Part shown: positions 6,639 through 30,663 of the stretch, in pieces
Layout of the letters: the number at the start of each line of letters is the position of its first letter
Numbering within the stretch: position 1 is the first letter of the stretch
Origin: Bryum argenteum
Taxonomy: Eukaryota > Streptophyta > Bryopsida > Bryales > Bryaceae
Reading direction: 5' to 3'
DNA: 64,000 bases
NCBI GenBank assembly: GCA_037043015.1
Contig: CM073321.1
Coordinates: 31,288,101-31,352,100 of the forward strand
Made by a program: the position numbers and the translations under genes
The notes under the pieces: generated by a model
The model's database searches: none
What the model saw: only the letters and a program-made list of their open reading frames with translations
What the model was told of the DNA's origin: nothing

Positions 6639-6804
6639 TGTTAACCAAATATTTTCCAAATATTCCCTTTTTGCTAGTCTATACCCGGTAGTCATAGACT
6701 CAACAGTAGATAATTAGCAGAGACGACGTAGTCGAGGTTGATACCCGACCGACCGACTTACTTAACTACAAGTCGGGTCGACCTTAGAGTCGACCGGGTC
6801 TGAC
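6639..6804 (+). repeat. LTR-like copy 1, left part (split by the giant hAT)
   Basis: Starts TGTTAACCAAATATT and continues after the hAT at 26508-26598, giving about 257 bp once the insertion is removed. It resembles, in length and in its last 75 bases (CCTATATGTAC...AAGGTGTT...GGTGGTAACC), the second copy at 28958-30859. Confidence 0.4.
6797..6804 (+). repeat. 8-bp target-site duplication GGTCTGAC, left copy
   Basis: Identical to 26500-26507, directly abutting the inverted repeats of the giant hAT. Eight base pairs is the hAT-superfamily size. Confidence 0.95.
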
Positions 6805-6825
6805 CAGGGTTGTCTTATTAGACAC
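6805..6825 (+). repeat. Left terminal inverted repeat of giant hAT
   Basis: Perfect 21-bp match to the inverted 26479-26499. Confidence 0.95.
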
Positions 6826-7014
6826 AATTTAGGGAATGTTTGTCTGATTTGTCGTATTGGACATGTCTGTTAGACGTCCGATCGACGAAAATGTGGACCG
6901 TACCAAAAATTACATAGTAAAAAACTTGTTGAGATTTACCTTGAGGTAAAAAGCTATTTTCCTACGTGGCGTAGGGTTGATAATGACGTGGAAAATCAAA
7001 ATACACGTCATAGT

Positions 7015-7280
7015 GGGCGACCGCGGGTGGGCGACCTCGCTAGGCGACCGACGGTCGCACATGGGCGAACGTCGGTCGCCTGCTGCGATCGCCGATCGCC
7101 CTGGACTGCCGAATACGAAACAAGAAAGACTGCTGCGATCGCCGATCGCCCTGGCTGCCTCACGTAGGCGATCGCCACATGGGCGCTACCCCCAGGGCGA
7201 CCGCCGATCGCTATAAGCGACCGACGATCGCCCTGGGCGATCGTCGGTCGCTCACTACTGGACCGGCGGTCGCCTAGTAG
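7015..7280. repeat. Palindrome array 1 (left subterminal)
   Basis: About ten near-copies of GCGACCG-N-CGGTCGC and half sites (GGCGACC, CGATCGCC). GC-rich island in AT-rich surroundings. A 30-bp stretch ending in AATACGAAACAAGAAAGA recurs at 7110-7130 and 7288-7303. Open frames here are by-products of the high GC content. Confidence 0.85.
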
Positions 7281-7609
7281 CGGTTGAATACGAAACAAGA
7301 AAGATAAATTCATATTGGTACAAAATGAGCTTCAACGCATGTTTATGAATACCTTTTTATCGGAAACAAGATCAATGGTGCATTTCATAGTACGAATTTG
7401 TCCATGTCTATAATCATAGTATTCATATATATGATGTAACTATTACATATACCAAACTATATATATATTATACTCCGAAACATACTAGGATACCAAAATA
7501 TTGTAAGCTAATAGTTGCCCTATTTGCAGTACATTCTAGTATTCTACTGAGTACTAACAATGAACTTTGTGCTTCCAATCTAAAATAACAAAATTCTAAT
7601 AACCCGTCT
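7281..7609. other. AT-rich spacer, probable 3' region of the hAT transposase gene
   Basis: No open frame or motif supported. Lies downstream of the minus-strand transposase gene. Confidence 0.5.
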
Positions 7610-8437
7610 TTAGGTATCCTTCAATGTATACGTATTGTCGCTTGATACTTCATCTGCATTTGGATCGGTTTCACCTAGAGAGTCATCAGTGCTTTGGTCG
7701 CCATCCTCGTCTTCATCCTTTGTCTTATTGCGTACTTCACACTCAACCTCACTCGCCAAATTGTGCAATTCTGTGTCTGTAGTTGTTTTCTTGTTCACTG
7801 TAACGAGGCGCTTCAAGGGCCGTGAAGCATTAGTGATCCCGTTTGCGTTCAGTGGTAGATGGCGCATTGTACGTGTATTCGGATTATTGGATGAAGCAAT
7901 CCGCGCATGAACTTCTTCATGTACGCGTGCTCCTTTCCGACATCGTTGGTCGTGTGCCTTCCTCAAACGCTTCTGGCCTCGTGTAATACGATTGCGAGGT
8001 TGTGTAGATGGCCCAACGTCTCGTGCCACTGCCAATGCCTGGGTGCATGTTGGACTTGATGGTTCTATCTTGACCTCCATCTTCGGCAATACCATACGAG
8101 TTGTATGGGCCCCTTTAGGTTGGGTAACCCTTGGGAACAATTGCTGTAGAGGTACATCGGAGTCATCTCCGTTAAGAGTTGAATTCCTTGATCGAATGGT
8201 TGAAACTCTAGGTGACCCCACTTCCATGCAACCTGAATTGGATACATCGTCAGGTTCTACTTTAATTTGGTCCATTTGAACTCCTGCCGTGGTAACCGTG
8301 CACTTCACACTCTCAAGTTTATCGTCGTTGTTAGAGTGTGGGCTGCTTTCAAGTGGACCAATGTTCTCTTCATCCATCCGGTTTACCAAGTCTTGTTTCG
8401 CTAGGCAGGTACTCTCTTGGAGTTGTAAATTTGCCAC
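7610..8437 (-). CDS. Acidic/basic tail ORF overlapping the end of the hAT transposase
   Basis: 275 codons, Ser/Asp/Glu-rich with a basic patch (RGQKRLRKAHDQRCRKGAR) that looks like a nuclear localisation signal. It overlaps the last 37 bases of the transposase frame in the -1 register (8401-8437). It may be a C-terminal extension reached by splicing or by a one-base shift, or a second small protein; no family recognised. The absence of stops over 275 codons between two AT-rich regions argues that it is or was coding. Confidence 0.5.
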   Translation of the reverse strand: MANLQLQESTCLAKQDLVNRMDEENIGPLESSPHSNNDDKLESVKCTVTTAGVQMDQIKVEPDDVSNSGCMEVGSPRVSTIRSRNSTLNGDDSDVPLQQLFPRVTQPKGAHTTRMVLPKMEVKIEPSSPTCTQALAVARDVGPSTQPRNRITRGQKRLRKAHDQRCRKGARVHEEVHARIASSNNPNTRTMRHLPLNANGITNASRPLKRLVTVNKKTTTDTELHNLASEVECEVRNKTKDEDEDGDQSTDDSLGETDPNADEVSSDNTYTLKDT

Positions 8438-10769
8438 TCCTTCTCCTTCTGTGTCGCTGGCGAATACCGCAAGCTGGCGAGGCAGTTGTGGAACATCCTG
8501 GTGTCATCGAACTCAAACGGGTCCTTGACATGAATAGTCATGTTTCCTTCGTTGTCGTTCCAATTCTCTAGGTCGTCGTGTTCGCTACCGTCATTGAGAT
8601 AATTGTCGTCATCTGCCTCCGGATTATCCATGAATACACCATCATCCCATTCATTGTCCGGTACATAGTCTTCTTTGTCAGAGTCCTCTTCTTCTAAATA
8701 ATTTTCGTACCACGTTCTCGGCGATTTGGTACGTTTCTGGCGCTCGAGTTTGGCGTTCGCATAGATGTACACAAGGTCCTCTGCTTTGGAAGTTGACAAC
8801 CGATTCCTCACTTTGTTGTGCACGAAAGAGTACATGCTCCAATTCCTCTCACATGATGAAGCTGGACATGTCAATGCCAAAATCCTCTTCGCAATTTTTG
8901 GCAAGGCATTCCCCTCGACTTGATGCCACCATTGATGTGGTAACAAGTCACAGTGAGCTGGATCAGGGGCCTCTGAATTGATGTTAAATGGACCCGTCCT
9001 CTCCTCATATTGTATGAGTTCCCGCACCACTTCCTCATAGACTACTCCCATTGGGGCGCTAAGCTTCCTTATGACCCGGTTTAAAGCTCTTTTTGCTTCT
9101 CCATTGTTTTGAATTGCTCCCATATTTGTCAAATAAGGGTTCAACAAAGCTGTTGCATAGTGGAGGTCTGTGAGCATCATTTCCCATCGTTTTTGAAATG
9201 CATCCTTGTATTTTGTAGCTATGGCGGGGGATTGTTCGAATGGAGGTTCACGCAAAGAGAACACGTGTTCTTTAAGGTCCGACATGATCACATACGCCCT
9301 AGGCATGGCTGGTACTTCCCCGTCAAACTCCCGAAGAGCTATGAGTACTGGTTCAACTACTTTCACAAACTTCGTACAATTCTCCCAGAACTCATCGCTC
9401 CTAATGCTATTCCGCACATTCCTTGCCTTTGTCTGTAACTGGTGACTGTTTTGCCTGTTGAACAATGTTTGGACAAACACATGCCACTCCGCATCGATCA
9501 CCATGTTGTTCAGAGGTTGTTGTAGCTTTAACAACCGCTCTATCATCAAGTAGTTTGTTGCAAATCGAGTCTGAGGTGGTACCTTGAGCTGCGGCTTCGG
9601 CGAGTACTTCCTGAATAGAGCAAGTGGGACGTGCGACCCTTTAATAAATGTGCACACTCTCTTGGTTTGCTCCACCAAATGCTTAACCCATGCCTCTTTC
9701 CCCCAATCTTCTAGAAGGAGGTCTAGAATATGTGCCGCACAACCTTGTCCATATAAGTGAGGATAGTCTATCTGCAACTTCTTCACAGCACCTAACATGG
9801 AGCTTGCATTGTCTGTGTATATCTGAACGATGTTTTGTGGTCCAACCTCCTCTATGTACTTCGCCATTTCATTTGCCACATAAGCGATGTCCTTTTACTT
9901 CCCTGTAGTATCCACTGATCCCAGAAACACCTCTCCCACTGGGCAAACGAGCATCACGTTAATGAGTAGTCTACTTGTGACATCTGACCACCTATTTGAG
10001 CATATTGTTCCTCCGTACTTCTCGATAGAAAGTTTTGTTCGATCCTCTACCGACCTTTGCACAGCTGCCTTCTTTGCATCGAGCATCGTAGTCCTAATAG
10101 CATGATACAAGGGTGGTTGATATCCACCAATACCGGCCTTTGCTGTATCTTGAACGGCATTTATGAATGCTGGATGTCGTGCGGCATTGAATGCAATGTT
10201 TGCCTCTTAGAAAAATGAAGCCCACTTTGCATCCAAATTTTGCCTAGTGGCAAGATCAAAACTATCCTCCATACTCCTTTGCCCATGTCGCCGTCCACTA
10301 GAGAGTGTAGAGATCCTTTGTCCATTGCTGCCATGACTCCCCTTGTTAGAGGATGGCACCTGATTAGACCTTAGGTTAGGGGATGGCACTTGTACAGACT
10401 TGATGCGAGGGGAATCTATGTTCTCTATAGTTTCCCTTGCCACATATGGTATGCCGGCATCCACTCGTGAGTCAGGAACAACATCCGCATAAGGAATGTT
10501 GTTCTTTGGAACCATCCCTCCGCAGTCACGGAATAGCTCGAGAACTCCACGGGGTAACCTCGTACACCGGGGTAATGGGGAATTATGAGGATATCCGAAA
10601 TAAGCATATGCTCGTTGCTTTACAAAGACTGTGCTTTTTTCTTACAGAATAAGCACACGCGAGTATTTGGCTTGTCGTTCCGTTCCGTGGATACTTGTAG
10701 CCAATCGTCCCATTTGCGAGTGTCTCTTCTATTATCTGCTACCCCGTTGGATTGGGAAGAATGCTCCAT
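8401..10769 (-). pseudogene. hAT-superfamily transposase (BED finger, DUF659, dimerisation domain), broken
   Basis: Likely start at Met 10769 (MEHSSQ). Order: BED-type zinc finger (KWDDWLQVSTERND...VCLFCKK), a Ser-rich linker, DUF659 start (KYGGTICSNRWSDVTSRLLI and VDTTGK), the RNase H-like core (YTDNASSMLGAVKKL...YGQGCAAHILDLLLEDW), and the C-terminal hAT dimerisation block (LTCPASSCERNWSMYSFVHN, KVRNRL), then an acidic tail. Breaks: stop or shift in the finger near 10620-10640, TAA at 10207-10209 and TAA at 9895-9897, each inside a conserved block with the frame resuming on the other side. Function: cut-and-paste transposition of this element, dead in this copy unless supplied by another. 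It is preceded by a TATA box (10938-10945) and palindrome array 2. Confidence 0.88.
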
Positions 10770-10937
10770 GTTCCGGAATCGCACCTCCGCCGGTGTAATG
10801 AAACTGGTGACGACAACGCGCACTACAAGGGCTCAAGTTACTCTTTGCACATAGACCGAGCAGGGGGCTTCTCATGGGGAGACCCAAGACAACTGGCAAA
10901 GCGCAAAGGAAAGTGGCTTCGAGCCCGTGAACGACTC

Positions 10938-10945
10938 CTTATATA
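10938..10945 (-). promoter_or_regulatory. TATA box of the hAT transposase gene
   Basis: On the minus strand GGAGTATATAAGGAG, about 170 bases upstream of the MEHSSQ start and 40 bases downstream of array 2. Confidence 0.55.
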
Positions 10946-10980
10946 CTCCAACTTTTGTAAGTTGGGGGCGAATGCGCATA

Positions 10981-11152
10981 GAAGGCGACCGGCGGTTCGG
11001 CTAGGTCGCCACAGCCAGATCGGCGGTCGCCCTAACAACAACGCTGACGCGCCATATGAACCGGCGGTCGCCCTGGCCTTGACTTCATCGCGCTAGGTGG
11101 ACCGCCGGTCGCCCTAGCCCTGACCCAGTTGGACCGCCGGTCGCCCTAGCGA
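10981..11152. repeat. Palindrome array 2 (upstream of the hAT transposase)
   Basis: Five copies of GGCGACCGSCGGT-type sites (for example GACCGCCGGTCGCCCTAG twice). Position immediately upstream of the TATA box suggests an upstream activating or transposase-binding region. Confidence 0.8.
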
Positions 11153-11704
11153 TGACAGATTTCTTCGACGAATAGCACTTTACTCTCCAACCACAAATTT
11201 GTAGGGGGCTATAGTCAATATCAATGGTCCACGCAGTACAGCTATTATTAACTAGAATCCCAGAGACCATGCGGCTCAAAAATGTTTGATTGGCAATTAT
11301 GCTTTTCTTTTTTTAAAAAAAAAAAAAAAACAAATAAAGGGAACATGGGAAGGCAAGAGAGAGAACAATACGGACTCATATTAGAAACTAGAGTTTTAAC
11401 TTCTCTTGCTCCAAATCCAAAAAATATAGGGATGAATATTGCTCAATCCACGTTTTCTAAATAATTAAGAATGGAAAAAATTGCCATATATCAATGAAGG
11501 TACCTTGGACATTGAAGGTTTTTCCCTTATGCTTATACCAAATGCAATAGTGAGATTTCATTCACCAAGAATATTTAAATTGAAGAAAATCAAAAACTTC
11601 ATATTCACATTCAACGTTTTTGCATACAAAATGGCAATTGCACTTAGAGTTTGGTATTACGTAGACTACTTTTCTACAACTGCTAAAAAAACGTGATTAA
11701 CTAA
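11153..11704. other. AT-rich spacer between array 2 and cargo copy A
   Basis: No gene supported; contains a poly-T/poly-A run at 11310-11331. Short plus-strand open frames show no family features. Confidence 0.5.
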
Positions 11705-12345
11705 CTACCAGTCATTCTTCGCTTGGGCCCCCTTCATTGTAAAGTTGGCTTGGCCCCCCTTCTGTACAAACTTGGCTTGGCCCCCCTCATCCAAATGTGC
11801 TTCATCTTCCTCCATTGTTTGGTTCGGCTCCCCTTCATCCACTTCTCGCTTTTCGGTCCCTTCTTCTTCCGAATTTGACCAAACTATGTCCTCATCTGGG
11901 ATTCCTCTTTAGTAACCCCTAGGCGTTGTAAGACCTTCTCGTGGGTTGGCCGCTGGATAAGGAGCTCGCGGAATATGGGGTTGTGTTGGCTTAATTGTTT
12001 GAGGGGATTTTTTTAACGTCCTCCAATCCACCTCCCTCTGCAAAATTATCTCCGCGTACACCATTTGTGCTATGTTGTACGAAAACTCGTTGCTCACCAC
12101 ATGCACACCGGCGTAGAGGAACTTCCACACTTCAATGCATCGTTGCACAAATTCATCGTGATTGCAATAGTGCAAATTTGCGCTATTCAGGCGGCGATGA
12201 AACTCGTGGGATCTATGAGAATCTTGTGAAATCTCCTTTGCTTCTTTCCTTTCCTCTTGCGGTCCTTGTCTCTCGCTATCTTTCGCTCCTGGCTAGGCGT
12301 CATCGTCACCCAAATGCTAACCAAGGAAGAAAATTTTTAAAATAA
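11705..12345 (-). pseudogene. Cargo family copy A, truncated
   Basis: Same family as copies B, C and D. In one frame from about 12265 to 11705: a charged stretch, then FHRRLNSANLHYCNHDEF, VQRCIEVWKFLY, NEFSYNIAQMVYAEIILQ and EVDWRTLKKSPQ, matching copy B residue for residue over about 90 positions. TAA at 11909-11911 interrupts; the frame resumes with an acidic segment aligning to copy B (WSNSEEE to NPNSDEE) and ends in short Gly/Gln repeats (GGQAKFVQK, GGQANFTMK). The region matching the first part of the domain (AFxGWE to WCHI) is lost or shifted. No known domain recognised. Confidence 0.6.
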
Positions 12346-12473
12346 CTCAAAACAAAGTTATATCTATTCCGTGGACTAACACAGAATTTGAAAAACTTGA
12401 AAATCGGGCAGCACGTATGTGTAAAATGTACACGTGTGGCACGTCTGTGCCAATCACTGCACGCTCTAGCGCT

Positions 12474-12562
12474 CGAACAAGCAAGCGGCAACCAGAGGTC
12501 GACACCAGACAATGCGCAAGGCCCGACACGTGGAGGTGAAAAATGGCGACTGCCAGTGTCCG
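12474..12562 (-). promoter_or_regulatory. Shared upstream module of cargo copy A
   Basis: About 89 bases closely matching 17383-17471 in front of copy B; the end nearest the gene reads GTTGCCGCTTGCTTGTTCG on the gene strand, and the same core stands in front of copy C (19351-19369). It lies between the gene and array 3, so it is probably core promoter or 5' leader. Confidence 0.55.
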
Positions 12563-12584
12563 CGCGCGTATTTGTAACCCTGGT

Positions 12585-12905
12585 GCTAGGGCGACCGCCG
12601 ATCCAGCCGATGGGCGAGCGTCGGTCGCTGGGGCGACCACCGATCCACCCGATAGGCGAACGTCGGTCGCTGGGGCGACCGCCGATCCACTTGGTGGGCG
12701 ACCTTCGGTCAGAGGGCGCGACCTCGAAATGGGAGGGCGCGACGTATGTCTGGGGGCGCGACCTCTGGATTGCGCGACCACCGATGCAGCGGACGGGCGA
12801 ACGTCAGTCGCTGGGGCGAACGTCGGTCGCTGAGGCGAACGCGGATCCAGCTGGTGGGCGAACGTAGGTCAGTGGGCGACCGCCGGTCCAGCTCATGGGC
12901 AAGGA
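12585..12905. repeat. Palindrome array 3 (upstream of cargo copy A)
   Basis: Near-tandem units of about 38 bp: GGGCGACCGCCGATCCA(S)CCGATGGGCGAACGTCGGTCGCTG. Contains both the palindromic site and an inverted half site per unit. Confidence 0.85.
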
Positions 12906-12919
12906 CTAACCTTCCTCCC

Positions 12920-14545
12920 AGCGTATTTGTCAAAATTATCAAAGCAGTAACGAATTTATATAATGGCTTTTGGTGGCAAGTATTTGGAACCATCAAAACT
13001 ATAAAAAAAAAAGAGATATAATAGATAAATGGGGCATTAATGTGATTTAAATACTTGGACTTCCTAATAATGACCCTATGAAAATGATCGAATCATAAAA
13101 AAAACCATAGGGAAATCACATCCATATGTCATAATTTAGGTGCACCCACCACAACTTCGAATGATAAGGGAAAAGAGAATAAAAGGGTAGAGGAGGTGAT
13201 ACGAACACTTGAATTAGGTAATAAGGGCCTCATGAATGTAATAGAAGTATTCATACAACCATAGGAGAATGCGAACTATGTGGTTGAATTTATATGGGGA
13301 TATTTGAATTGCGGGGTTTGAAGCACGGGGGCATATGTAAAAATATAAGCAAAAAGGGAGTGGAAGGGGTGTTGATAACTTTCTTAGGTGATTCATATAA
13401 TGTAAAAAATATGGTATAAATCTTAGGGCCACGGGAGGAACGAAAGTATTTTTCCCGAATTTCTGAAAATTAAATAGTCATGTGAAAGTAGGCGGTGTGG
13501 GCACATGCATACGAAAACAAAGTGGGGAATGTAATTTGAACATTTGGACTACACTAAATAGGTACAATAGTGTTAGATTTTTATAAAATTTGAAAATGCT
13601 ACAAGTTTTTACTTTTGGTAAAAAAAATTTACCAAGAGTATTGATTCCAATACTATGTAAGGATCCCCATCTTGACCATTGTAGAGGGTAAAAATATTGA
13701 CTAATAGTAAAAACTTATAGCCTATTTATGTAAATTAGTGTATCTAACACTAATCTACCTATTCAGTGTAGGTAATATGGATCATATAAAAATGATGGAA
13801 CCATCAAAAAAATTTATAGGACAACCTATACTATTTTTCCCAAATTAATCTAGAATTTTTGAAGTAAGTAGAGCTTTAAATAATAGATAAAAATAGTTAA
13901 ATGGAGAGAAAAAATATTTTAAAAAGAATTGGACTATTTAATAACTACCTTATGAACATGATGGAGCTATAAAAAAAAAATCGTTGGAGTAAAGGATCTA
14001 TAGGGTGGATTTTGGTTGCAAGCACTTAGAAACACCAAAACTTCAAAAAATAAGAAAAAATAGATAAAGGGGTAAGGGGACAATTTAAACCCTTAGACTA
14101 CCTAATGATGACCCTATGGAAATGATGGTGTTATTTAGAAAATCGTGGGGATATCTCATCTATAGGTCATCATTTACTTGTAAGTCTTTTGAATGAGTAG
14201 AATATTGAATGATATACGGAAAATAGATTTGTGGAAAGGGATAACGATTTTAAAACTTGTGTTGACTAAAAAAGACCTTATAAAAATTATGGAAGAATAA
14301 AATTCCCGTAAGAGAAACGTATCTACATGTCATGATTTACTTTGACTTTGTAGGATGCTGAGTAATAGAGGAAGTTATACTAAAGGGGGGAGGAGGTGGT
14401 TTTATTATTTTCTCTAACCGTATTAAATATATTGAATCATGAAAGAAGCCACATGGAACTTGGATTTACATGGAAGGAAATACTTGGTGTTAATTTGATT
14501 GAACGTTGGCATGGTATAGGATACTTGGTGTTAACTTGATTCAAA
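12920..14545. repeat. Degenerate tandem repeat, period about 165 bp
   Basis: The phrase (GACC)TATG-AAATGATGG plus a preceding TTTAAA..CTTGGACTA..TAATGA recurs near 13073, 13226, 13391, 13560, 13778, 13946, 14110, 14274 and 14422, mostly 150-170 bases apart. AT-rich with no coding potential. It looks like an old satellite inside the hAT. Confidence 0.55.
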
Positions 14546-14555
14546 ACCTCCAGAT

Positions 14556-15006
14556 CGCGCGACCGCCAATAGAGCGGATGGGCGAACGTCGGTCGCTAGG
14601 GCGACCGCCGATCTAGTCGATGGGCGAACGACGCTGACAGGGCGACCGGCGGTCTACGTGATGGGCAAGGACCCAAGGAGAAAGTATCCGCGAGCCTCCG
14701 CGCACCCCCTCTTGATGGGGCGACCGACGATCCAGCCGATGGACGAATGTCGGTCGCTTGGGCGAACGTCGGTCGCTAGGGCGACCGCCGATCCAGCCGA
14801 TGGGCGAATGACGCTGACAAGGCGACCGGCGGTCTACGTGATGGGCAAGGACCCAGGGAGAAAGTGTCCGCGAGCCTCCACGCACCCCTCATGATGGGGC
14901 GACCGCCGATACAGCAGATGGGCGAACGTCGGTCGCTAGGGCGACCGCCGATCCAGCCGATGGGCGAACGACGCTGAGAGGGCGACCGGCGGTCTACGTG
15001 ATGGGC
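14556..15006. repeat. Palindrome array 4 with a higher-order repeat
   Basis: Three higher-order units of roughly 170-190 bp: three palindromic sites (GGGCGAACGTCGGTCGCTAG, GGGCGACCGCCGATCCAGCC, GGGCGACCGGCGGTCTACGT), then an 80-bp linker (GATGGGCAAGGACCCA...GCCTC). Unlike other arrays, no gene start lies next to it; it sits beyond the 3' end of cargo copy B and may mark a lost gene. Confidence 0.85.
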
Positions 15007-15711
15007 TCGAATATCTGCTTCCCCCCCTTTTGCTACAAATCTTTTTCTGCATATTTGAAATCATGTACGATTATACTGAATCATTACCTTTAGATGTTTT
15101 GGGGGGTTTGTCAAAATATTCATCGACTCTAAATACTTGCAACTAAATCCCACCATATATTGATACGTAACTACAACAACTTAGTCATGATTCCAAATTT
15201 TTACAAATTATTTATCATTACTTCATCGTGGATTAATGCTAATCAAAGCTTTCCAAAATTCAATATCATTATATATACATATGGAATGGTATAGACGACA
15301 TAATTTTCTAAAATACCACTGTCCAAAGTATCCACCAACCTACCAACATACAAACCTACCAACTTAAATAATTACCAACCTACATACCATTCTAAGAACC
15401 TTTCTTTACATATTTCCAAATCATGCATTTAAAATAAAAAATAAAAAAAGAAAAAGAATAAACAAGATGATTAAAATAACACCGTGCGCATATATACAAA
15501 TAATAAACATAACATCGTTCAACGAGTATCTTACTAGTAAAAACATATCATATAATCAAAAAGATACATTGTATAACATCCAGCCTAGCACTTATCTCCC
15601 AACTTTCAGTTCACAAATAAAATAAAGTAAATGGATATAACCAACACACCAACGTCTTTCTAAAATTTGATTCCGCTTACTCTAATCTTCTTCCATTGTA
15701 CTTTCGATTAT
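15007..15711. other. AT-rich spacer downstream of cargo copy B
   Basis: No gene supported. Simple AT-rich sequence and an A-rich run near 15430-15462. Confidence 0.5.
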
Positions 15712-17312
15712 TTATAAATGGTACCAGCTCCGACATTTCTCCTTTGTCTTATTTGCAATACATAGATCTTCGATCCTTGCTTTTAAGAACCTCTCCTCTT
15801 CTGCGAACACAAGTAGCTTTTTGACCAACTCCTGAGTTGTTTCATTGCGCTGTGAACTTTGACCCTCTTCTGCAATATCCACGGTTCCATCTATTCTATT
15901 GAGTACTAACTTTTCCTTGTTCTCCTTCATCCTTCTTGATGCTAGGTTCACCCTTTCGATCTCAGCTCTCAAGGCATCGCATGCCGAAATGAATTCCTTT
16001 AGCTCCTTCTCAGAATGACCTTGGTCCTTGGCTCCTTCAACCATAATATCCTTCTCGCGACCCCAATCATTGACCACAAACCATTCGTCGACGTGATTAT
16101 ATCTCCTTTGCACATCTTCGAAATGTTTCATCTGCTTTATGAGCTCTTTCTCATAATCGACCTGATCCGATGCATCGAGAGTTGGAAAAACATTCGTCGC
16201 CACATCTTGGATCTTCTTTTTTGCATCCTTGATTACCTGTATGTCATGTTGGAGTTCAACACACTTTGCCCGTTCGTATGACAAAGCATGAAAGAAATAT
16301 TCATAATCCTCATAAGCCCTCTTCATCTCCTTCATCCACGAATCATCGATTTCATTCGGGCGTTTCGCTTTGAAGACTACTTGAACTTCCTTCTCCAGCT
16401 CTACTTCTTCATTTCCTTCTCTTTCTGGCTGTTCAATCGTTTCCATTGGATATTCTAGAGTCCCATCCTCTACGCTAACATTTGTTTGAGGAGAGGCGCT
16501 CATAGCGGGCCGAACTATAACTTCGGGTGGACCCAAAGTACAAGCACCAAACATTGCTTCAACCTCCATGTATTCAATGACATCCGCTTCTCCTTCTGTT
16601 CGTAGGTCCTCGACGTGCTTCACAGGTGCATCAATCACATCCAAATCTTGCACGCTTGTTTCACCCACATGAAAGTCTCCTACGCCACCAATAGAACCTT
16701 CTACAAGAGGAGTATGATGCTCCCTCTCGTTAACCTCTTCTTCATCAGAATTAGGATTTACCCAAACATACACATCATCAGCATCCCCATCTTTCCGATG
16801 CCTTGCTGCCGTATGTCCTTCTCGTGGGTTTTCTGTCAATGGAGCTCTTGGAATGTCTTGCTTGGTTGGAAGGAAGAATTGAGGCGATTTTTTCATTGAG
16901 CTCCAATCCACCACTTTCTCCAATATTACCTCTGCATACACCATTTGAGCAATATGATACGAAACCTCGTTCTTGGTGACATTCTTGCCTTTATAAAGGA
17001 ACCTCCACACTTCAATACATTGTTGTACAAATTGGTCATGCTTACAATAGTGCAGATTTGCAGCATTTAATTTCAAGTGCGTCTTATGTCGAAAGTGTGG
17101 AAACAACTTGCTGATGTGGCACCAGGCGATGTAATTCTTCACTGTTGTCCGACTCTACACACCCTCTTTGGTCTCCCACCCTGGAAAAGCGCGTTGAGTG
17201 GCATCTTGGAGAATACGGTGATTCCTCTTCTGTGTTTTTCCTCTCTTCTTGCGTCGTTCACCGAGTACTATTTTACGTTCCGCAATTGTACTCATTGTTA
17301 CCTCCGATCACG
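15712..17312 (-). CDS. Cargo family copy B (about 520 aa with one TAG)
   Basis: Start Met near 17311 (MSTIAERKIVLGERRKKRGK), basic leader, then the family domain: AFPGWETKEGV, TAG at 17155-17157 (other copies have an aromatic or Cys-type residue in this region), NYIAWCHISKLFPHFRH, NAANLHYCKHDQFVQQCIEVW, NEVSYHIAQMVYAEVILEK and VDWSSMKKSP. An acidic linker follows and then about 200 residues of coiled coil (YEDYEYFFHALSYERAKCVE; LRAEIERVNLASRRMKENKE). The His/Cys spacing (WCHI...RH...LHYC) could bind metal, but that is inference. Not recognised as any named family. Upstream lie the shared module and array 5. Apart from the TAG the frame is open for 476 codons, so it decayed recently. Confidence 0.65.
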
Positions 17313-17382
17313 GAAATGCGGCTATGATGTGATGTTAGATTCAAAACACCAAAAATAGTGCAGTCCACGTTGGTCGACCAAT

Positions 17383-17471
17383 CGAGCAAGCAAGTGGCAA
17401 CTTTGAGTCGACACCAGACAATGCGCAACACCACGGCACGTGGACTGAAAAGTGACGACTACGGCCAATAA
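17383..17471 (-). promoter_or_regulatory. Shared upstream module of cargo copy B
   Basis: Matches 12474-12562; gene-strand core GTTGCCACTTGCTTGCTCG. Both contain GTCGACACCAGACAATGCGC and a CACGTGGA E-box-like site. Confidence 0.6.
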
Positions 17472-17494
17472 CGATTGTATTTAACCTCCTGTGG

Positions 17495-17690
17495 CAGGGC
17501 GACCGGCGGTGTCACGGCGACATCGTTAGAGCGACCACCGGTCCAGTGTTTCTTGCAAGACTCGCTCCAGGGCGACCGCCGGTCCAGCTGCACCAGACCT
17601 CCGTTGTGACCGGCGGTGCAGCTTCAGAAGAGTTTCGATCCAGCCTCAGCGGAGCGCTTCGGGGCGACCGGCACTCTGCAGGGGCGACAT
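17495..17690. repeat. Palindrome array 5 (upstream of cargo copy B)
   Basis: Sites such as GGGCGACCGCCGGTCCAGCT and GGGCGACCGGCGGTGTCACG; more degenerate than arrays 3 and 4. Confidence 0.75.
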
Positions 17691-19009
17691 CGCGAGAGCT
17701 CCCGCTCTTGTTCTTGGATCCTCTTTATGCAATATTCAAATTTTGAATTAACCGCTTCAAGCATCTCTCCCATTCCCCCCTTCAATCCTCCTCATCCCCC
17801 CTCATCGCCCCTCATTCCCTCTCATTCCCACTTGGTTCTTTTATTTCTCATTCCCAAATGAAAATGATTCTCATGGTCATAGGCATTTTGCCAAGAGCGG
17901 TGACCATGATAGATGAAAAATGTATTTTATGCTCATTGGATACTCTTGTGGTGTAATATGGATTTAGATCGATACAAGTTTAATCACAATTTACAAAATT
18001 ATAATTTTCAACATTCTCAAAATTCTCAATATAAAATTTTCATCAAATATTGGTTCCAAAAGTACCCTCAGTAATGGATTGATTAGAATGTCCGCAAATC
18101 ATTAGTCTTCTTGACTTCAAATATTTACCTTCATATGGTGGTCACTCATTTTTTCTCCAAACATATAATATGTCATGATATATCACCTTTTAATTTGGTA
18201 AGCAACTATTTCTCTCAGTGCTTACTAGGCTATATGCACTAATCCCATTCACTTAATTGTATTTCAAGGCCTTATTATTTGACTTGCCAAAATTTTCAAA
18301 ATCCTCCCCCCTCTCAATTTAACCAATTTCATAATGTTATGAGCCCATAAACTCATTGCGAGGATAATCTATCAGTCGGATATTGTATACGGAGATCTTA
18401 TAATTTATTAAAGGCTCCACTGATATAAAAAGAAACTAGAAATTGTTCTTGAATGTGATGTTAAAATATGAGGTGCAGTTTTGGTATAGAAATGGTACCT
18501 TATTTAGATGCTAGGAATTGACTACCTTGGATTACATTCTTAGATTGTAGGTATTGAATCATTAGATGCATTAAAGTGTTTCATGCATTGAAGAGGCTGA
18601 TGCTCTATAATTGAATTCACATTTTATCACTTATTATAAATGGTTAGGCACAATATGACTTCTTAAAATATACATCATACAAAATAATATATACCATTCA
18701 TGCCTACGAAGAGGACGAGGAACTCTCACCCCATCCTTCCTCCCATTCATTATTATCCATTTAGACATCTCTTGTCCATTTCTTATGAATTGAATGATCA
18801 TAAAATGGGAATTATGGGACCCACGATCCGAAATTCCTACCCTATGCGTACCTTCTTAATTTTTAAACTAATACATTATAAACTATAGGGCTCTTTTATC
18901 CCTCCCCCATCCAATATTCATCCTCATCTCATGATTCTCATCCTCGTAAGAGCTGCTATGAAACCTCATGCCCTCGCATTCAACATAAAGAGGTGAATTC
19001 CCGATTGCA
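17691..19009. other. AT-rich spacer with polypyrimidine tracts
   Basis: No gene supported. Pyrimidine-rich runs at 17760-17850 (repeated CCTCATCCCC, CTCATTCCC) and 18900-18955. It separates divergently transcribed copies B (minus) and C (plus), each with its own array. Confidence 0.5.
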
Positions 19010-19262
19010 AATAGGGCGACCGCCGATTCAGCTGATGGGCGAACGTCGGTCGCTGGGGCGATCGGCGGTCCAGCTCATGGGCGAACGTCGGTCGCTGGGG
19101 CGATCGGCGGTCCAGCCAATGAGCGAACGTCGGTCACAGGGCGACCGCCGGTATAGCTTATGGGCGAACGTCGGTCGCTGGGGCGATCGGCGGTACAGAT
19201 AGGGCAATAGCTGGACCGGCGGGCGACCAGCGGTGCAGATTTTGTAGACCGCCGGTCGCCTT
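19010..19262. repeat. Palindrome array 6 (upstream of cargo copy C)
   Basis: Five units of about 38-40 bp alternating GGGCGAACGTCGGTCGCTGG and GGGCGATCGGCGGTCCAGC. Confidence 0.85.
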
Positions 19263-19350
19263 ATTACAGTGCTTAAAAACGCGACGGACAGTCCATTTTC
19301 ACACTTTGTGAGTCCCTCCTTTTCGCGTATTGACTAGTATGGACTTCAGT

Positions 19351-19369
19351 GTTGCTGCTTGCTTGCTCG
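19351..19369 (+). promoter_or_regulatory. Shared upstream core of cargo copy C
   Basis: GTTGCTGCTTGCTTGCTCG, the same core found in front of copies A and B, here about 35 bases before the likely start Met. Confidence 0.55.
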
Positions 19370-19403
19370 TAGAGGGACTTTGTGTTTCTACGAATTTTTT
19401 TTT

Positions 19404-20744
19404 ATGGAGGCACTACTCGTTGTAGCGGGTACATCCATGGTGCGCCATGACCGAGGTCGGATTGAGAAGAAGCGCATAGACATCTTGAAGAATCCAAAGA
19501 TATTAGCATTTGGAGGATGGGAGGAAGAGACGGGGCTGTGTTCTTTTGCCATATGTGAGAAATATGTGGAGTGGTGCCACATCAACAAGCTCTTTCCTCT
19601 ACATCGGCACAATATTCAACGCTACAAGAACGAAGCAAACCTCCGAGAGTGCCATCATTACCTATTTAAAGCAAGATGCATATATGCTTGGCATTTGATA
19701 TACGGTAACAACCATACTTTTAAATATGAGGTTCCCTACTTTTTGGCAAAAATGGCATATGCGGAAATGATTTTCGGGAAGGAGGTGGATTGGTGGACGC
19801 ATCCACGTTTGCCTATACAAGAGAAGACCGAACCAATAGAGGTTGGAGAGACATCAAAGACTATTGAAGGAGATGGAATTGGAACTATACCTATGAGTTC
19901 TAAGGCCAACGCGGAATTTTCCACAGCAGGGTCTTCTTCCGAATCGACGGAGGATGAACACACACACGAATATGAGCTCAGTGAACTGAGTGAACCAAAT
20001 GGTCCTCCAATAAATTGGGTGGAGGGGATTTCCTATGAGTCAAATCTACTCCGAACAGTGGGTGGAAGATTATCCGAATACATGGATGATTTTATCGTAT
20101 TGCACAATTTCAGTATAAGAACTTGCGTGCAATTGGAGGAAGTAGTGCAGCATAGAAAGGAATTGGAAGCCCTCAAAGAAAGAGCCCTTTCTCCCACTGA
20201 ACCATACGATGTACAAGAAGACTGTCGGGAGATTTCGGAAAAAGTTCTAGACAGCATAGCTGACATGGAGACCATGCTTGTGCTACAAAAAGAAGCTCGT
20301 GAGAAGTTTTTGGAGAAGAAACATTCAAACAACCTTTCCATAGAAGACTACGTAGAGTTCTGGACAGCGAAACATACTTACCTGGAAGGGGTCCTAGCTG
20401 AGAGGAGGGATTGATTGACGGATATTGAAGAATCTACTGCTCTAGAGGTAGATAAAGAGATGCTACGCATTTGTGATTTGGCATTTGCGGGTAAGTATGG
20501 CAAGACTCCAGAGGAAGTTGACAAATTAAAGAGGCTGGTGAAATGGAGTGAAGACCAGAATGTAAAACTCGCGAAGCAACTACGTGTAGCTGAGGAGAAT
20601 GCTCGATTCGAGGACGCATGGGCAGAGTGGGCTCATCGTAAAAGTAACGCAAAAGTTGACATCAACATAAACGCAATCAACGTTGATTTGGAACCGCAAC
20701 GATCACTTTTTTCAAAGGGCAAGGAAAAAGTTGAAGATTCTTAA
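19404..20744 (+). CDS. Cargo family copy C (about 445 aa with one TGA)
   Basis: Likely start Met 19404 (MEALLVVAG); an in-frame Met at 19359 exists but overlaps the promoter core. Domain: ILKNPKILAFGGWEEETGLC, YVEWCHINKLFPLHRHNIQR, EANLRECHHYLFKARCIYAW, YEVPYFLAKMAYAEMIFGK and EVDWWTHPRLP. Then an acidic linker (SSSESTEDEHTHEYE) and coiled coil. TGA at 20412-20414 interrupts at ERRD; the frame continues LTDIEESTALEVDKEMLRIC with further coiled coil to a stop at 20742. Family unrecognised. CGA-to-TGA would explain the stop. Confidence 0.65.
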
Positions 20745-21176
20745 CGTAGAGACGATGGACTTACACCCCCAACATTCACCAAACGATATTTGATTTACGT
20801 TAATTAGGTGTAGGGAAAGTGTACGTAATTTCTTCTATGTACTTTTTCGCATACACTTTATATATGGAAGTTTGTTTTTACCTTTCATCATGCGTAAGTA
20901 CGTGTTTATGCATTGGTACAAGGGGTTGGGCGGGTTATATGGACTATGAAGATGTAAGTTACAATAAAAGCTGACAAAGTACAATCGATAGACCACAAGC
21001 AAAGGAGTGAACCAAATACATACCATTGATTTAATCGGTGCAGAAAGCAGTACAATAGGAAATGAGATACATTGTTGCAAAAAGCTGCCACTCGATAATA
21101 ATATAATCAAATATAGTCCTATATAGCTAAAACCATACGCTATGCTGGAGTGTATGGATTGACAATATCGTAATTA
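20745..21176. other. Intergenic between convergent cargo genes C and D
   Basis: No gene supported; expected to contain the 3' ends and polyadenylation signals of both genes. Confidence 0.5.
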
Positions 21177-23526
21177 TCATTCACTAGACTGAAGGTTGGA
21201 GCATTCTCCAACAAGAAGTTTGGGCTTTGCACGAGTTCGATTGAATGGACCATCTGCATTTAAGATCAGATCTAAGACTCTAGAGTCTTTCAAGTACTGC
21301 AAAGTCCTTCTTGTGAGGGGACTATATACATCCAGTAAATAGTCTAGAGCTTGAGACTGGTATCGTGGCCCCCAAGTAGACTCAGCATATTGACACTCTT
21401 CCAAATCTTCCATCGACGCATGACCTTCACCGTTGGTTACTCTCTTCCCATATTGATTCCATCGATGTCCCATTGGATGGGGCCCCCACTTGAATGTATT
21501 AGAGCTCACATCAAAATAGCCTCCAAGGCATTGGAAGAAGAACATCCGATTACCCTCATGCTGTGGACCTTGTCCGGCAAGTATTGGTGCAACTCTTAGA
21601 ATCTCGTTTGGGTCAGTCCCCCAATTCAATTGGGAGCTAGGAGTACTCTTTTCGAGATCATGTTCACGTCTACGCCAACTCCAAATAAGGTCTTTACCCC
21701 AGAATCAAACCTCGTCAGTAGTCTCAGCATTGTGTTCCCAAGAAGGCGGCATATAAGTTCTTAGATTGAACATCTCGTAAAACCGCTCGTGAAAAGGCGC
21801 TTTGCATATAGCACAGCGACTTTGAGTCAAACAATGAACTAAGAGACACTGCGGATGATACATATGGACACATGAGCCTAAAGCCCATCCACCCTCAGGT
21901 CCAAATGGATTTAGGCATATGGGACACGTAGAGTGATCCAATACAAACTGCGGAGGGTTGGGCCACAATAATGTCCTGGATGCTACATCAACATGTGCCG
22001 ACATGTGGTGTTTGAAATTCCACCCGGCCTTGCTCCAATCTACAACCTCTGTAGAAGTGACATCTTGCATCTTGATGTCCATCATAGGAAGATTATCAAA
22101 CAATGTATCCACACTCGGCCACGAGGTCATATTGAATGTTCGTCGACCAGCTCCACTAGTAAAATTCGTATCGATCTTCTCGAGCTCCGCTGCAACTTGT
22201 CTCCCTCTGTCCACCGAAAGTATACATGCCACCTTCCAATGGTAGTAAGTGGCAGACAACTGCTCCAAACGAGCTTGCAGTTGTTGCTTTTCCTTTAGTA
22301 AGGAGTTGTATCCATCAGAAGACATGAAAGGGGGATTACGAATAGGGGGTAAACAACGGTAAAGATAAAGAATCTTGAGAATCACATCGTACATCTTCTT
22401 CTTGTTCGAAGCCCGACATATTAACAAGACATGGCTGAGCTTTCACAGGACGGCGCAATATAGGGCGTTGCGGTGACATTTCTCCAAATGCCAAGTCTTC
22501 TGTAAGGTTGAAGACAACTCTATCAACATACGCCATGTCTGATTTCTCTATATCTCCAGGAATGTTACGTGGGTGAGATAGTTCTTGCATCTTCTCGCGC
22601 ATGCGTGCATATTCCACGGAAAGCTCGTCCCCTTCTTTCACCTTCTCCTCATACATTGCTCGTGTTTTTTCGAGATCTGCTTGCAATCTTGCTATGACGT
22701 CGTCTTTGCTCTTCAGAAGAGCTTTGAGATCAGAAGATGTGTCAAGTTCTTCCAATGGTAAGATGCAAGTACCATGGGGCTCTACTATGGGTGGATGATT
22801 ACTTGCTATTGGAGGGCGAGAGCCACCTATTTCAGGAACGCGGCCAGGTAAATTACGACGATGATCCGCATCAATCACAACGCTGGAGGGAGGAAGAGGT
22901 TGTTGTACTTGACGCACCGCCTTACGAGGCCGCGAACCATCTGAGTCATTGTCCTCTTCCGATGTAGCACTATGATAGGAAGCCTCCTCCATAGCCTTGG
23001 TAATAGACCTCGTCACTCCCATGCCACCATTAGGAGCGTCAGGGAATCTTAGAATGCCTGTTGGAATGTCACTCGTTGAAGGTCGTGTTACATGCTTCCC
23101 CTCTTTGACAGTTGTCCAATCCACTCGTTTACCAAGAGCAACCTCGGCGTATACTCCACAAGCAAGAAACAATGGAACCTCGTTGCGCTCCACACATGGC
23201 ATGCCATACAGGACTTGGTAAACCTCAATGCATTGTTGTTTGAAGTTTGGGCATTCGCAAAACTTAAGATTTGCCTTGTTGGTGCGCTGATGAAAATGGT
23301 GACGAGACAGAGGGAATTTCTTGTCAATGTGACACCAATCAATGAACGATTCGCAAGTGGCCATCGTCCACATATCTCGTTCATCTTCCCAACCTCTGAA
23401 GGCAAGCTTATTTGGATTTTGAAGCACGTGTACTCTTTTCCATTGTGGAGCGCCCTTCCTCTTCCTCTTCATGTCGTTCTCTACCTTCCTAAGTTGCCCG
23501 AAAGTAGCCATGGATGAAATAGCCAA
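21177..23526 (-). pseudogene. Cargo family copy D fused to a RING-H2 finger and a C-terminal domain
   Basis: Start Met 23526 (MAISSMATFGQLRKVEND). Family domain: VLQNPNKLAFRGWEDERDMW, FIDWCHIDKKFPLSRHHFHQ, KANLKFCECPNFKQQCIEVY, NEVPLFLACGVYAEVALGK, RVDWTTVKEG. Then a low-complexity linker and coiled coil (KSKDDVIARLQADLEKTRAM). Near 22360 the register moves by one base at a C-run, after which a second coiled coil and a RING-H2 finger follow (CPICLNPF...CVHMYHPQCLL...RCAIC), as in E3 ubiquitin ligases. TGA at 21705-21707 interrupts, and the frame continues (FWGKDLIWSWRRREHDLEKS) through a Trp/Gly-rich domain of about 150 residues to 21177. The frame shift could instead be a short intron. Zinc ligands are all present. 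The TATA-like stretch at 23637-23645 and array 7 lie upstream. Confidence 0.65.
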
Positions 23527-23636
23527 AATGGCGAATAGTTATTACCAACCCGGAACGAGCATGCAGCCAATTTAATGGATGTAAGAGAACGCCCAAGGCC
23601 CGTAAACCCAAATAAGAAGTTCAGATACAATGGGGG

Positions 23637-23645
23637 AATATATAG
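23637..23645 (-). promoter_or_regulatory. TATA box of cargo copy D
   Basis: Gene-strand CCTATATATTCC about 110 bases upstream of Met 23526, at the edge of array 7. Confidence 0.5.
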
Positions 23646-23975
23646 GGCAACCTCGCGCCGGGGCGATCACAAAATCAAGGCAACCGTCGGTCCAGATAGA
23701 GGTACGATGTTGCGTGGCGACCGGCGGATCAGTGAGGGCGCGACCGCACGTACAGCTGTCGCGACGCTTGAGGTGGGGCGACCGCCGGTGCAGCTGTTCG
23801 CGACAGCTGTAGGTAGGGCGACCCATGGTGCAGCTGTTCGCGACAGCGGGACGTAGGGCGACCGCCGGTGCAGCTGTCGCGAAAGCGGGACGTAGGACGA
23901 CCGCCGGTGCAGCTGTCGCGACAGCGGGACCTGGGGCGACTGGCGGTGGGCGACTGTAGGGCGACCGCCGGTCTC
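23646..23975. repeat. Palindrome array 7, between divergent genes D and the kinase
   Basis: Units of about 38-40 bp: GGGCGACCGCCGGTGCAGCT then GTCGCGACAGCGGGACGTAG. The TCGCGA sites are a second palindrome. TATA boxes flank the array on both sides, pointing outwards, so it sits where a bidirectional control region would be. Confidence 0.85.
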
Positions 23976-23981
23976 CAGGGA

Positions 23982-23989
23982 TATATAAA
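23982..23989 (+). promoter_or_regulatory. TATA box of the kinase-like gene
   Basis: TATATAAA, just after array 7 and about 180 bases before Met 24168. Confidence 0.6.
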
Positions 23990-24167
23990 TCCCAATGCGC
24001 GGGTTTGTTATTACTTTTCCCCAAACCGCTATCGAACTCTCCTCCGCCCTGTGTCCATGCTCGTCTTAATGATGCGCACTGCCGGGTCGTCTGAGGAGTT
24101 TTTGGGGTTTGGTGCACATTGATAGCAGGGGGGAGATTTTTTGCCGATTTTTTCAAGAAGTTCAACG

Positions 24168-25713
24168 ATGAGTAAATCCAAAAAGCACCAGGAGAGACAA
24201 CGAACATGGGATCTGGATGCCCCCGAAACATTTGCACCAGACCTTGGTATGCAACAACCTAGTGGAAGTGGAGGCCATAAGAGGAAGAGGAGACACCCAA
24301 AAGAAGTAACCGGATTCCCAACATCAGATTATACTAGGTTTGCGGAAAAAGCATGCTTGGATTGGTATGAGGAAATGGAGGCTCAATTCCTAGAGCACAA
24401 CTACTTGAAGAATGTTAGCATGGGCAAAGGGAGACTGAAGAAGAAATTGGAGGCGGTAATTTTGAAGGCCATGGCGGAATCGGATGAATTCCAGATGTGG
24501 ATTATCATTCGCAGTACCAGTTGTGGATGGAGAATACAATTGAACAATGCATCTTCAATGTAAAGGAGTTGTGGAGGAAGCAATTTGGACAGAGGCGTCT
24601 AACACAAGAGGAGGACCAATTTAAACGCAAGATGGATTGGTGGCAATTCTATGTCTAAATGCTTAGCAAAAATAAAACCCGAGAAGTGTCATGGGAAAAA
24701 ACCGCTTTGCGCGCCACATTTGAACGAGACACAGGGTCGGGGGTGGTGTGGATTCCTCAAGACGCTACGATAGAAGCTCTATCAGCCCGCGACATGGAGG
24801 GAGGCCATGGACTGGTGCGGGAGGTGCGGATTGTTGGAGTAGACCACGTTCCAGATTATATCGAGTTTGCAGCAAAGCTTTCCAAGAATATGAATATTCA
24901 CAAGAGGAGAATAGAGACTGCAGCAGAAGCTCTTGTATGTCCTTTGAATCATCCAGGAATTATCAAGTTTTGGGCGTTGCATACAAGGACATTCGAAGCT
25001 TACTCATATTGTTGGAATGGAGGATCACTACACGAAATGTTGAAGTTGGATGAGAAGGTCGGCGACAAACATCTTCACTGGTCGAGAGTAAAGGAAGTTC
25101 TCAGTCTCACTCAAGAGGAGGCTTTCAGAATTAGCCTTTTCCGTCAGCATAGGATGAAGTTAGCTTGGGGTTTAGTGTACATCATGAATGTGGTGCATAA
25201 GACAGGAGTACTTCACAATGACCTATCCCCTCGAACATACTATTGCATTTCTCAACTATCGGAGAAGACAAGATTTGTATTGGAGTGTGTGACTGGGGGA
25301 TGGCATCTCGCATAGTAGAACAACAGCCTTCACGTTACGGATACCAGACGGAGAAGAAAAAAGAAGAAGATATGGCACGTCGATGGTGGGTGGTGCCCGA
25401 GATGTTCTATACTTATGGACCTCAAAGTTTTGATACAAATTTGAACGTCCAGGAACTTCGACATCAAACCACAGTAGCATCAGATTCGTATGCTGTTGGC
25501 AAGCTCATCGAGCTGATTGGTGTGCATAACGAATTCGACGAAGAATTATTTCCGAATTCGACGGTGCGATATTCATTCCTATCAAAAGTGTTATCACTGA
25601 CCAGGCATGAATCGGAGAAGAGAATGACCTGTGGGGAGGTGGTGAACCGCTTGATGGGGAAACCATATCATATGCTTCCACCGGAGTCTGTGTTTAGAGA
25701 GGACAGTAATTAG
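24168..25713 (+). pseudogene. Protein-kinase-like cargo gene, broken in three places
   Basis: Start Met 24168 (MSKSKKHQERQRTWDLD). About 150 residues of charged, unrecognised N-terminal domain come first (one-base shift near 24490, TAA at 24656-24658). A kinase-like C-terminal half follows: EFAAKLSK may hold the ATP-binding Lys; VVHKTGVLHNDLSP is the catalytic loop with HND in place of HRD; NILLHF follows after a one-base loss near 25233; CDWGMA replaces DFG; VVPEMFYTYG stands for APE; SDSYAVGKLIELI matches the helix F region. The catalytic Asp and the metal-binding DWG Asp are both present, so the ancestor could have been active. Closest subfamily not recognised. It has no sign of a host intron structure in this element. 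Kinase and RING next to each other suggest signalling or degradation roles, by inference only. Confidence 0.65.
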
Positions 25714-26107
25714 TTTATAATATCAGTATATCTTCTTGCAATTCATAGACTCCTATGGATGACCATCTCACGTCATTGAGTGCTCATTTAGCCATGTAAT
25801 TCACAAATTATACTTGCAATATATACAATCTACTTTTTGACATATTGTTCCAGTTTTAATAGATTTTTGCAACTCTTATAATTATGTTCCCTTTTTACAC
25901 TAGTCACATATGTATGTCACCACATTTTTTGTTACATGAGTTTCAAACCTCATGGTTGATGTTAGCCTTTTCTTCACCGGTTCGTGGATTGTTGTAATTT
26001 GTTTCATCTTAAATTCTTAATGCTTCATCTACGTTTGTATAACGAGAATTTTGGATAATGTTGGATAGCAAAATAACTTATTGTACTCGGGGGAAGCCTC
26101 CAATGCA
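25714..26107. other. AT-rich spacer between the kinase gene and the right-hand array
   Basis: No gene supported; probable 3' untranslated region of the kinase-like gene. Confidence 0.5.
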
Positions 26108-26302
26108 AGGCGACCCTAGGCGACCACCGGTCCAGGGGCAAAAATAGGCGACCGCCGGTCAAGCGAGACCGCCGGTCGCCCCGGGCGATCGTCGGTCGCT
26201 CATGGGCGATTGTCGGTCTACCCTGGGCGATCGGCTTTCACTAAGGCGACCGCCGGTCTAGACGGGGCGACCGCCGGTCTAGACGGGGCGACCGCCGGTC
26301 CA
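26108..26302. repeat. Palindrome array 8 (right subterminal)
   Basis: Includes three tandem 20-bp units GGCGACCGCCGGTCTAGACG (about 26243-26301) and CCGGGCGATCGTCGGTCGCT sites. It mirrors array 1 at the other end, each roughly 200 bases from its terminal repeat. Confidence 0.85.
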
Positions 26303-26478
26303 GTCCTATGTGGCGCAGTCTCGAACCGTATTGCTGAGTTGTACACACCACGTGGCATCCACGTAGGATGCAACGTGGACAAGGTAAATCAAGGGTAAAA
26401 AAAAGATTCTGTAGATTCTATTAGACACTTTGAGGATCAATGTCTGTCGGACATGTCGTGTCTGTCTGACGTCCGACA

Positions 26479-26499
26479 GTGTCTAATAAGACAACCCTG
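26479..26499 (-). repeat. Right terminal inverted repeat of giant hAT
   Basis: Reverse complement of 6805-6825, no mismatch. Confidence 0.95.
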
Positions 26500-26507
26500 G
26501 GTCTGAC
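26500..26507 (+). repeat. 8-bp target-site duplication GGTCTGAC, right copy
   Basis: Identical to 6797-6804. Confidence 0.95.
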
Positions 26508-30660: not shown

Positions 30661-30663
30661 TAT

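Follow-up and report, generated by a model that had tools for sequence, protein, structure and literature searches.

A hAT transposon family of six genes and about 19.5 kb with palindromic motif arrays, represented by a decayed copy in a probable moss genome

The usual description of a hAT element is that of a transposon with a single gene. The 64,000-nucleotide window analyzed here (C1:31288101-31352100, in a genome of 258.8 Mb in 25 contigs) contains a stretch of about 19.7 kb at 6805-26499 that a preliminary description had presented as a cargo-carrying giant DNA transposon of the hAT type. The locus raises the questions whether this stretch is indeed one mobile element and whether the further genes between its ends belong to it or merely travel with it.

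The perfect 21-bp inverted repeat and the identical 8-bp duplications claimed to lie 19.7 kb apart both proved exact (Table 1), and the claimed hAT transposase gene was recovered between the ends in the form of DUF659 and Dimer_Tnp_hAT domains. The element is inserted in a dispersed repeat. A genome-wide search with its joined flanks gave 24 scored matching places, two of which are the element's own flanks and 17 of which cross the junction, the best of these being C3:22415981 (88%, query 1-213). Three junctions were inspected. At C1:36561508 the exact expected pre-insertion site is present with one GGTCTGAC, C5:7266117 also has a single GGTCTGAC, and C3:22415981 is diverged at the site. The inverted ends, the duplication and the paralogous empty sites that are uninterrupted at other places show 6805-26499 to be a single mobile element.

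The exact 21-mer end occurs 214 times in the 258.8-Mb genome (108 forward and 106 reverse), whereas the reversed control pattern did not occur in the same 258.8 Mb, and the ends are therefore more frequent than expected by chance. Allowing up to three mismatches, 171 left-type and 126 right-type ends were counted genome-wide. From a partial list (the first 40 or 100 places per search, richest in C1 and with one duplicate entry), 44 pairs of adjacent inward-facing ends were obtained, and the 43 pairs shorter than 50 kb were tested for duplications; the pair left out spans 56 kb and has same-type ends. An exact 8-bp duplication flanks 34 of the 43, and two more pairs are one base off. Among the pairs of at least 17 kb, 13 of 15 have an exact duplication, with lengths of 45.6, 35.5 (C6), 32.9, 30.0, 29.7, 27.9, 19.7, 19.7 (the window's element), 19.5, 19.4, 19.1, 18.9 and 18.9 kb; no duplication was present at the 35.5-kb pair in C1 (E35b) or at the 17.7-kb pair. 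Many short members share the same ends. The duplications have a weak preference for T at position 2 (16 of 33 exact cases) and A at position 7 (18 of 33).

Besides the window, the large copies E19b (C1:27255963), E45 (C5), E35a (C6), E35b, E33 and E30 (C1) were read, E30 except for 7.4 kb at its right side, where the end alone was read; of the eight further pairs between 17 and 30 kb, those of 29.7 and 27.9 kb included, just the ends were covered. E19b (19,742 bp) has its own duplication and is colinear with the window's element at 92-94% identity, except for a stretch of about 170 bp within the left array. A genome search for the 21-bp end, which the preliminary description had suggested as a check, hence yielded not only the exact ends but also copies of similar size with their own 8-bp duplications, and E19b shares both ends and the cargo over a colinear 19.7 kb or so. 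The same backbone is present in the same order in E45, E35b, E33 and E30, with gaps and other insertions; in E35a only the ends and spacers, amounting to a few kb, are common to the family. The unit measures 17.7-19.7 kb, a range into which 8 of the 43 pairs fall. We rejected the idea that every large pair is a true giant. E45 contains a nested LTR retrotransposon with direct repeats of 1.3 kb that are 99.2% identical and with frames read as gag-pol-like, and E35a was discarded as a giant family unit because its 30-kb middle contains frames read as other transposon genes. Nested insertions thus account for at least part of the length of the larger pairs.

Six single-exon genes, encoding the transposase and the companions A, B, C, D and K, follow one another in the same order across the copies read. 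A, B, C and D have one uncharacterized domain in common, to which D adds a RING, and K has a kinase fold with the catalytic residues present. The "at least five other genes", said to be mostly of one family, are four genes of one family and a kinase. In 13 members of the A-D family, the Pfam matches with an E value of 0.1 or lower included neither DUF1985 nor DUF287. A D-like protein with a RING (P0055) was found in another source, and relatives of K with as little as about 30% identity still have its active-site residues. The E19b transposase matches PF04937 (5.6e-31) and PF05699 (5.2e-6), both above the Pfam cut-offs; these domains are also found in the window copy, where the gene is in pieces at 7610-8503, 8401-9894 and 10207-10641. 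Its N-terminal part is a Cys/His-rich region that we take to be BED-finger-like. Relatives of the transposase number 124, of which 120 were listed, and few of them carry an organism name. Named among the matches listed are Ceratodon purpureus and Physcomitrium patens, with Fragaria vesca far lower, and one relative (P0074) is labeled as a Bacilli bacterium MAG, perhaps through contamination. By these names the host is probably a moss. All six genes of the window copy carry stops or frame breaks, so that an intact window copy was rejected, and no fully intact copy was seen among the copies read. A 5.7-kb member at C1:1074950 has CTTCACAA on both sides and flanks that read as K-gene sequence; in the K gene of the window, the CTTCACAA stretch occurs once, near 25200-25240.

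Linkage of genes and ends was counted genome-wide for K, D and the transposase, using the best 86 of 1011, 55 of 1784 and 56 of 1177 first-look candidates, respectively; for A, B and C it is based on the copies read. A right end lies within 6 kb of K in 32 of the 86 scored copies (20 at 860-1016 bp), one of these links (5,653 bp) belonging to a smaller member that has inserted into the K gene concerned, and a left end lies 5-45 kb away in 37 of 86 (19 at 16.9-18.0 kb). Linkage of K to either end was found in 58 of 86 copies and to both in 11 of 86, compared with 1 in the flipped control and a random mean of 2.6 (maximum 9). The transposase has a left end within 4 kb in 31 of 56 scored copies, a K partner in 26 and either of them in 40; the controls for left end and K partner gave 0 and 0 when flipped and 0.15 and 0.76 at random. 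For D, a divergent K within 6 kb was present in 37 of 55 scored copies, an element end in 41 and either in 49. Copies without a partner in the partial lists of ends and genes were 28 of 86 for K, 16 of 56 for the transposase and 6 of 55 for D. Many of the best-scored transposase, D and K copies stand at near-constant distance from the ends or from one another. As the gene set and its order recur, the companion genes behave as parts of the element and not as chance passengers. Of the earlier phrase "cargo-carrying giant DNA transposon", a real element with recurring cargo stands, but "cargo" in the sense of chance passengers does not, and "giant" is borderline at 19.7 kb.

The motif GCGANCGNCG and its reverse form occur 71 times in the window's element, against a Markov mean of 0.2, and all 47 plus-strand matches of the window lie within the element. 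Beyond the fixed search letters, the consensus of 381 sites from six copies completes the GC-rich palindrome gGGCGACCGNCGGTCgc. The motifs form eight clusters. Two are at the ends, four precede the genes for the transposase, A, B and C, one serves the divergent genes D and K together, and one is an orphan. By our reading, the start codons of all six window genes are 145-290 bp from a cluster.

Table 1. Features of the element and its flanks, in window positions
Feature	Position	Strand	Basis or remark
Left 8-bp target-site duplication GGTCTGAC	6797..6804	.	Identical to right duplication
Left 21-bp terminal inverted repeat CAGGGTTGTCTTATTAGACAC	6805..6825	+	Exact sequence match
Left subterminal array, GCGANCGNCG motifs	7044..7273	.	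Motif search; 15 matches, both orientations
hAT transposase gene	7610..10769	-	Broken in window copy; better copies have about 1060 codons; start codon by reading sequence
Array 216 bp upstream of transposase start	10985..11144	.	Motif search
Gene A, family domain	11712..12303	-	245-aa stop-to-stop frame in E35b; broken here; limits by reading
Array 288 bp upstream of gene A	12591..12885	.	Motif search
Orphan array, no recognized adjoining gene	14582..14991	.	Motif search
Gene B, family domain	15712..17295	-	One stop in window copy; 530-aa stop-to-stop frame in E19b; start by reading
Array 204 bp upstream of gene B	17499..17581	.	Motif search
Array 145 bp upstream of gene C	19016..19259	.	Motif search
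Gene C, family domain	19404..20745	+	Stop at 20412-20414 in window copy; limits by reading
Gene D, family domain and C-terminal RING-H2-like finger	21177..23511	-	827-aa stop-to-stop frame in E19b; broken here
Array between divergent D and K, whose starts are each about 200 bp away	23717..23970	.	Motif search
Gene K, protein kinase with helical N-terminal domain	24168..25713	+	Frame broken here
Right subterminal array	26148..26297	.	Motif search
Right 21-bp terminal inverted repeat, reverse complement of CAGGGTTGTCTTATTAGACAC	26479..26499	-	Exact match
Right 8-bp target-site duplication GGTCTGAC	26500..26507	.	Single copy at two inspected empty sites

Ends, duplications, empty sites, many copies, a recurring gene set and arrays make up the anatomy of the family, and we infer how the transposase acts and what functions the A-D family, D in particular, and K may have. 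On balance, we favor the reading that the window holds a decayed copy of a six-gene hAT family of about 19.5 kb, in which A-D probably serve as self-specific regulators or anti-silencers at the arrays. By analogy with hAT biology, the DUF659/hAT transposase would excise the element at its 21-bp ends and reinsert it at sites of the weak nTnnnnAn type. The palindromic arrays at the ends and upstream of the genes are putative binding sites, for which the domain common to A-D is the most likely partner. A-D would then lift silencing of the element's DNA and/or activate its genes, comparable to VANC in the VANDAL elements of Arabidopsis and TnpA in Spm. D with its RING and K with its kinase would be the effectors, acting at the arrays on proteins of the host or on the transposase by ubiquitination and phosphorylation. 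A broader proposal, which we regard as possible rather than probable, is that of a moss hAT lineage with a regulatory kit of its own, consisting of sequence-specific A-D proteins (one with a ubiquitin ligase finger), a kinase and promoters that bear the palindrome of the transposon ends. Such a lineage would mark its own DNA and direct ubiquitination and phosphorylation there to undo silencing or to license transposition, a form of anti-silencing that would have originated independently of VANC and TnpA.

The arrays could instead be bound by the transposase only, in a real six-gene hAT whose A-D and K proteins act elsewhere, for example in host repair, the cell cycle or defense signaling. hAT elements generally carry subterminal transposase-binding repeats, and both the presence of arrays at the two ends and the BED-finger-like region of the transposase fit this explanation. 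However, arrays also precede each gene, where binding by the transposase would be needless for excision, and four paralogous proteins per element suit a dedicated binding family better. We consider transposase-only binding a serious but rather unlikely alternative to arrays read by A-D.

Selection on the genes bears on whether the companions matter to the element at all. Pooled pairwise dN/dS over at most six copies was 0.39 for the transposase core and 0.90 for its N-terminal part, 0.65 for A, 0.78 for B, 0.86 for C, 0.52 for D and 0.62 for K. Changes present in two or more copies were taken to reflect the mobile lineage; codons with stops or N and copies with too few codons per gene were excluded from the counts, which left four copies for D. 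The ratio of nonsynonymous to synonymous shared changes was 15:21 in the transposase core, 15:4 in its N-terminal part and 30:25 in the whole transposase, compared with 14:11 for K, 13:13 for D, 18:4 for A, 33:9 for B and 23:8 for C (74:21 for A, B and C together). With copies that are few and related, all p values are rough. The core differed from its own singletons at p 0.008 and from A+B+C at p 0.0001; the effect was weaker for the whole transposase (p 0.04 and 0.003), and the N-terminal part alone showed no difference (p 1.0). Set against their singletons, K and D show no more than a tendency toward the pattern of the core (p 0.10 for K, 0.08 for D), and A+B+C did not differ from theirs (p 0.35). 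These comparisons of shared and singleton changes indicate that A-C are fast-evolving or weakly constrained.

Gene capture by plant transposons is known, and the companions might be passive passengers, that is, host genes captured in the manner of Pack-type elements and amplified without function for the element. The lack of purifying selection on A, B and C among copies and the many broken copies speak for this explanation. It is, however, difficult to reconcile with whole genes instead of fragments, recurring in the same order and at near-constant spacing in many copies, each with an element-specific array upstream, or with the maintained active site of K and the D-like P0055 in another source; we judge it improbable. 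More improbable still is a cargo element that resembles a virus or moves horizontally, after the fashion of Teratorn or Starships. The presence of a kinase in mobile DNA with several genes, the spread of K relatives over many contigs and the bacterial label of P0074, if not contamination, would agree with such an origin, but no structural, replication or packaging gene was recognized among the six genes, and mosses (Ceratodon and Physcomitrium) are among the named relatives of the transposase. That the ends stem from separate short elements, of which there are many with the same ends, or were brought together by chance or an assembly join has a negligible probability in view of the exact duplication at distant ends, the junction-spanning empty sites and the second full copy, which is colinear over 19.7 kb and flanked by a duplication of its own.

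The recurrence of five companions in a large hAT with many copies shows that a plant cut-and-paste element can retain a complex gene set. With a palindrome, candidate binding proteins, a RING protein and a kinase in one unit, the family offers a natural system for how a transposon defeats or negotiates silencing. It is also a warning for annotation, as many of the genes labeled "kinase" or "RING" in genomes of this sort may belong to transposons.

A literature search judged from titles and abstract starts, with most subscription papers outside its range, gave no match to the gene content, size and arrays of the element and no description of a hAT accompanied by kinase or RING genes. As large multi-gene mobile DNA the family resembles Maverick/Polinton elements, Teratorn, in which a piggyBac-like transposon and a herpesvirus are combined, and large Helitrons, which use a Rep-helicase protein (consulted parts of PMC6431247). 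To count as giant there, a transposon must exceed 20 kb over its internal coding region, a limit that a unit of 17.7-19.7 kb narrowly misses; the whole word "hAT" does not occur in this review of giant eukaryotic transposons. What distinguishes the family from Pack-type elements is that gene content and gene order agree between the copies read, with linkage seen genome-wide. In the latter, captured fragments vary from copy to copy. CACTA elements have a different transposase and a 3-bp duplication, and TnpA of Spm/En acts on subterminal repeats. The likeness lies in TnpA being an element protein linked to methylation loss (consulted parts of PMC10398659).

VANDAL elements likewise combine a transposase with companion proteins and have short-motif repeats in noncoding parts, also upstream of the transposase gene; the VANC companions bind tandem short-motif repeats and cause methylation loss, and they are much less conserved than the VANDAL transposase, just as the companions are less conserved than the transposase here (consulted parts of PMC5735166 and PMC10398659). 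In these parts VANC is described as having DUF1985 and DUF287, whereas A-D match neither, and no kinase or RING gene is mentioned. The transposase of the present element is of the hAT type and not of the MULE type. VANA, the VANDAL transposase, belongs to the MULE superfamily. The parallel with VANDAL and VANC is one of anatomy and not of membership.

With the hAT elements Ac/Ds, Tam3 and Tol2 the family shares a DUF659/hAT transposase with a C-terminal dimerization domain, short inverted ends, 8-bp duplications in which T2 and A7 are favored, subterminal repeats and small relatives with the same ends. The terminal inverted repeats of hAT elements start with the consensus C/TAGNG, which the CAGGG... 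start of the ends fits, and the Ac-type target preference is nTnnnnAn. A usual hAT is a few kb long and, when autonomous, encodes a single transposase, a pattern that is usual and not defining. The present family differs in that five further genes, four paralogous companions and a kinase, recur with the transposase in a six-gene unit of about 19.5 kb with per-gene arrays. By every defining feature tested, the element is a hAT.

Full-size copies of the hAT transposon seem to be concentrated on C1, the contig holding the window, which comprises 44.1 of 258.8 Mb (17% of the genome). Copies of the element's kinase gene K lay on this contig in 65 of the 86 best-scored of 1011 candidates, whereas the left ends did so in 21 of the 55 among the matches listed with at most one mismatch (Fisher p 1.6e-5). 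C1 may be a sex chromosome or a gene-poor chromosome.

Small members of 0.8-5.2 kb have ends in common with the large hAT elements and also carry the motif arrays and the spacer blocks of the latter, but the blocks are rearranged. One array of the window element has no adjoining gene (table below). Two small elements, 4.7-4.8 kb long, match the stretch around it (element positions 6472-8193) at 93-95%. This orphan array may mark a structural site or the place of a gene since lost.

Features in the window and in the large element E45
Feature	Location	Strand	Remarks
Tc5/pogo-like DDE_1 transposase frame	window 2620-3876	-	outside hAT element
Motif array without adjoining gene	window 14582-14991		
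Palindromic insertion site GGTCTGACAATAGTGTCAGACC	window 26500-26521		within dispersed repeat
Nested LTR retrotransposon	E45 29199-37254 (C5:13851820 onward)		1.3-kb direct repeats, 99.2% identity

The LTR retrotransposon nested in E45 is young, and gag-pol-like frames, read by eye, lie between its direct repeats. Other genes were found in the large element E33: one codes for a DUF7869 protein (PF25273, 1.2e-42), another for an NLI-interacting-factor/FCP1-like phosphatase (PF03031, 6e-13). Frames of E35a, likewise read by eye, resemble these two genes and follow one another in the same order; the gene pair perhaps represents another multi-gene transposon family.
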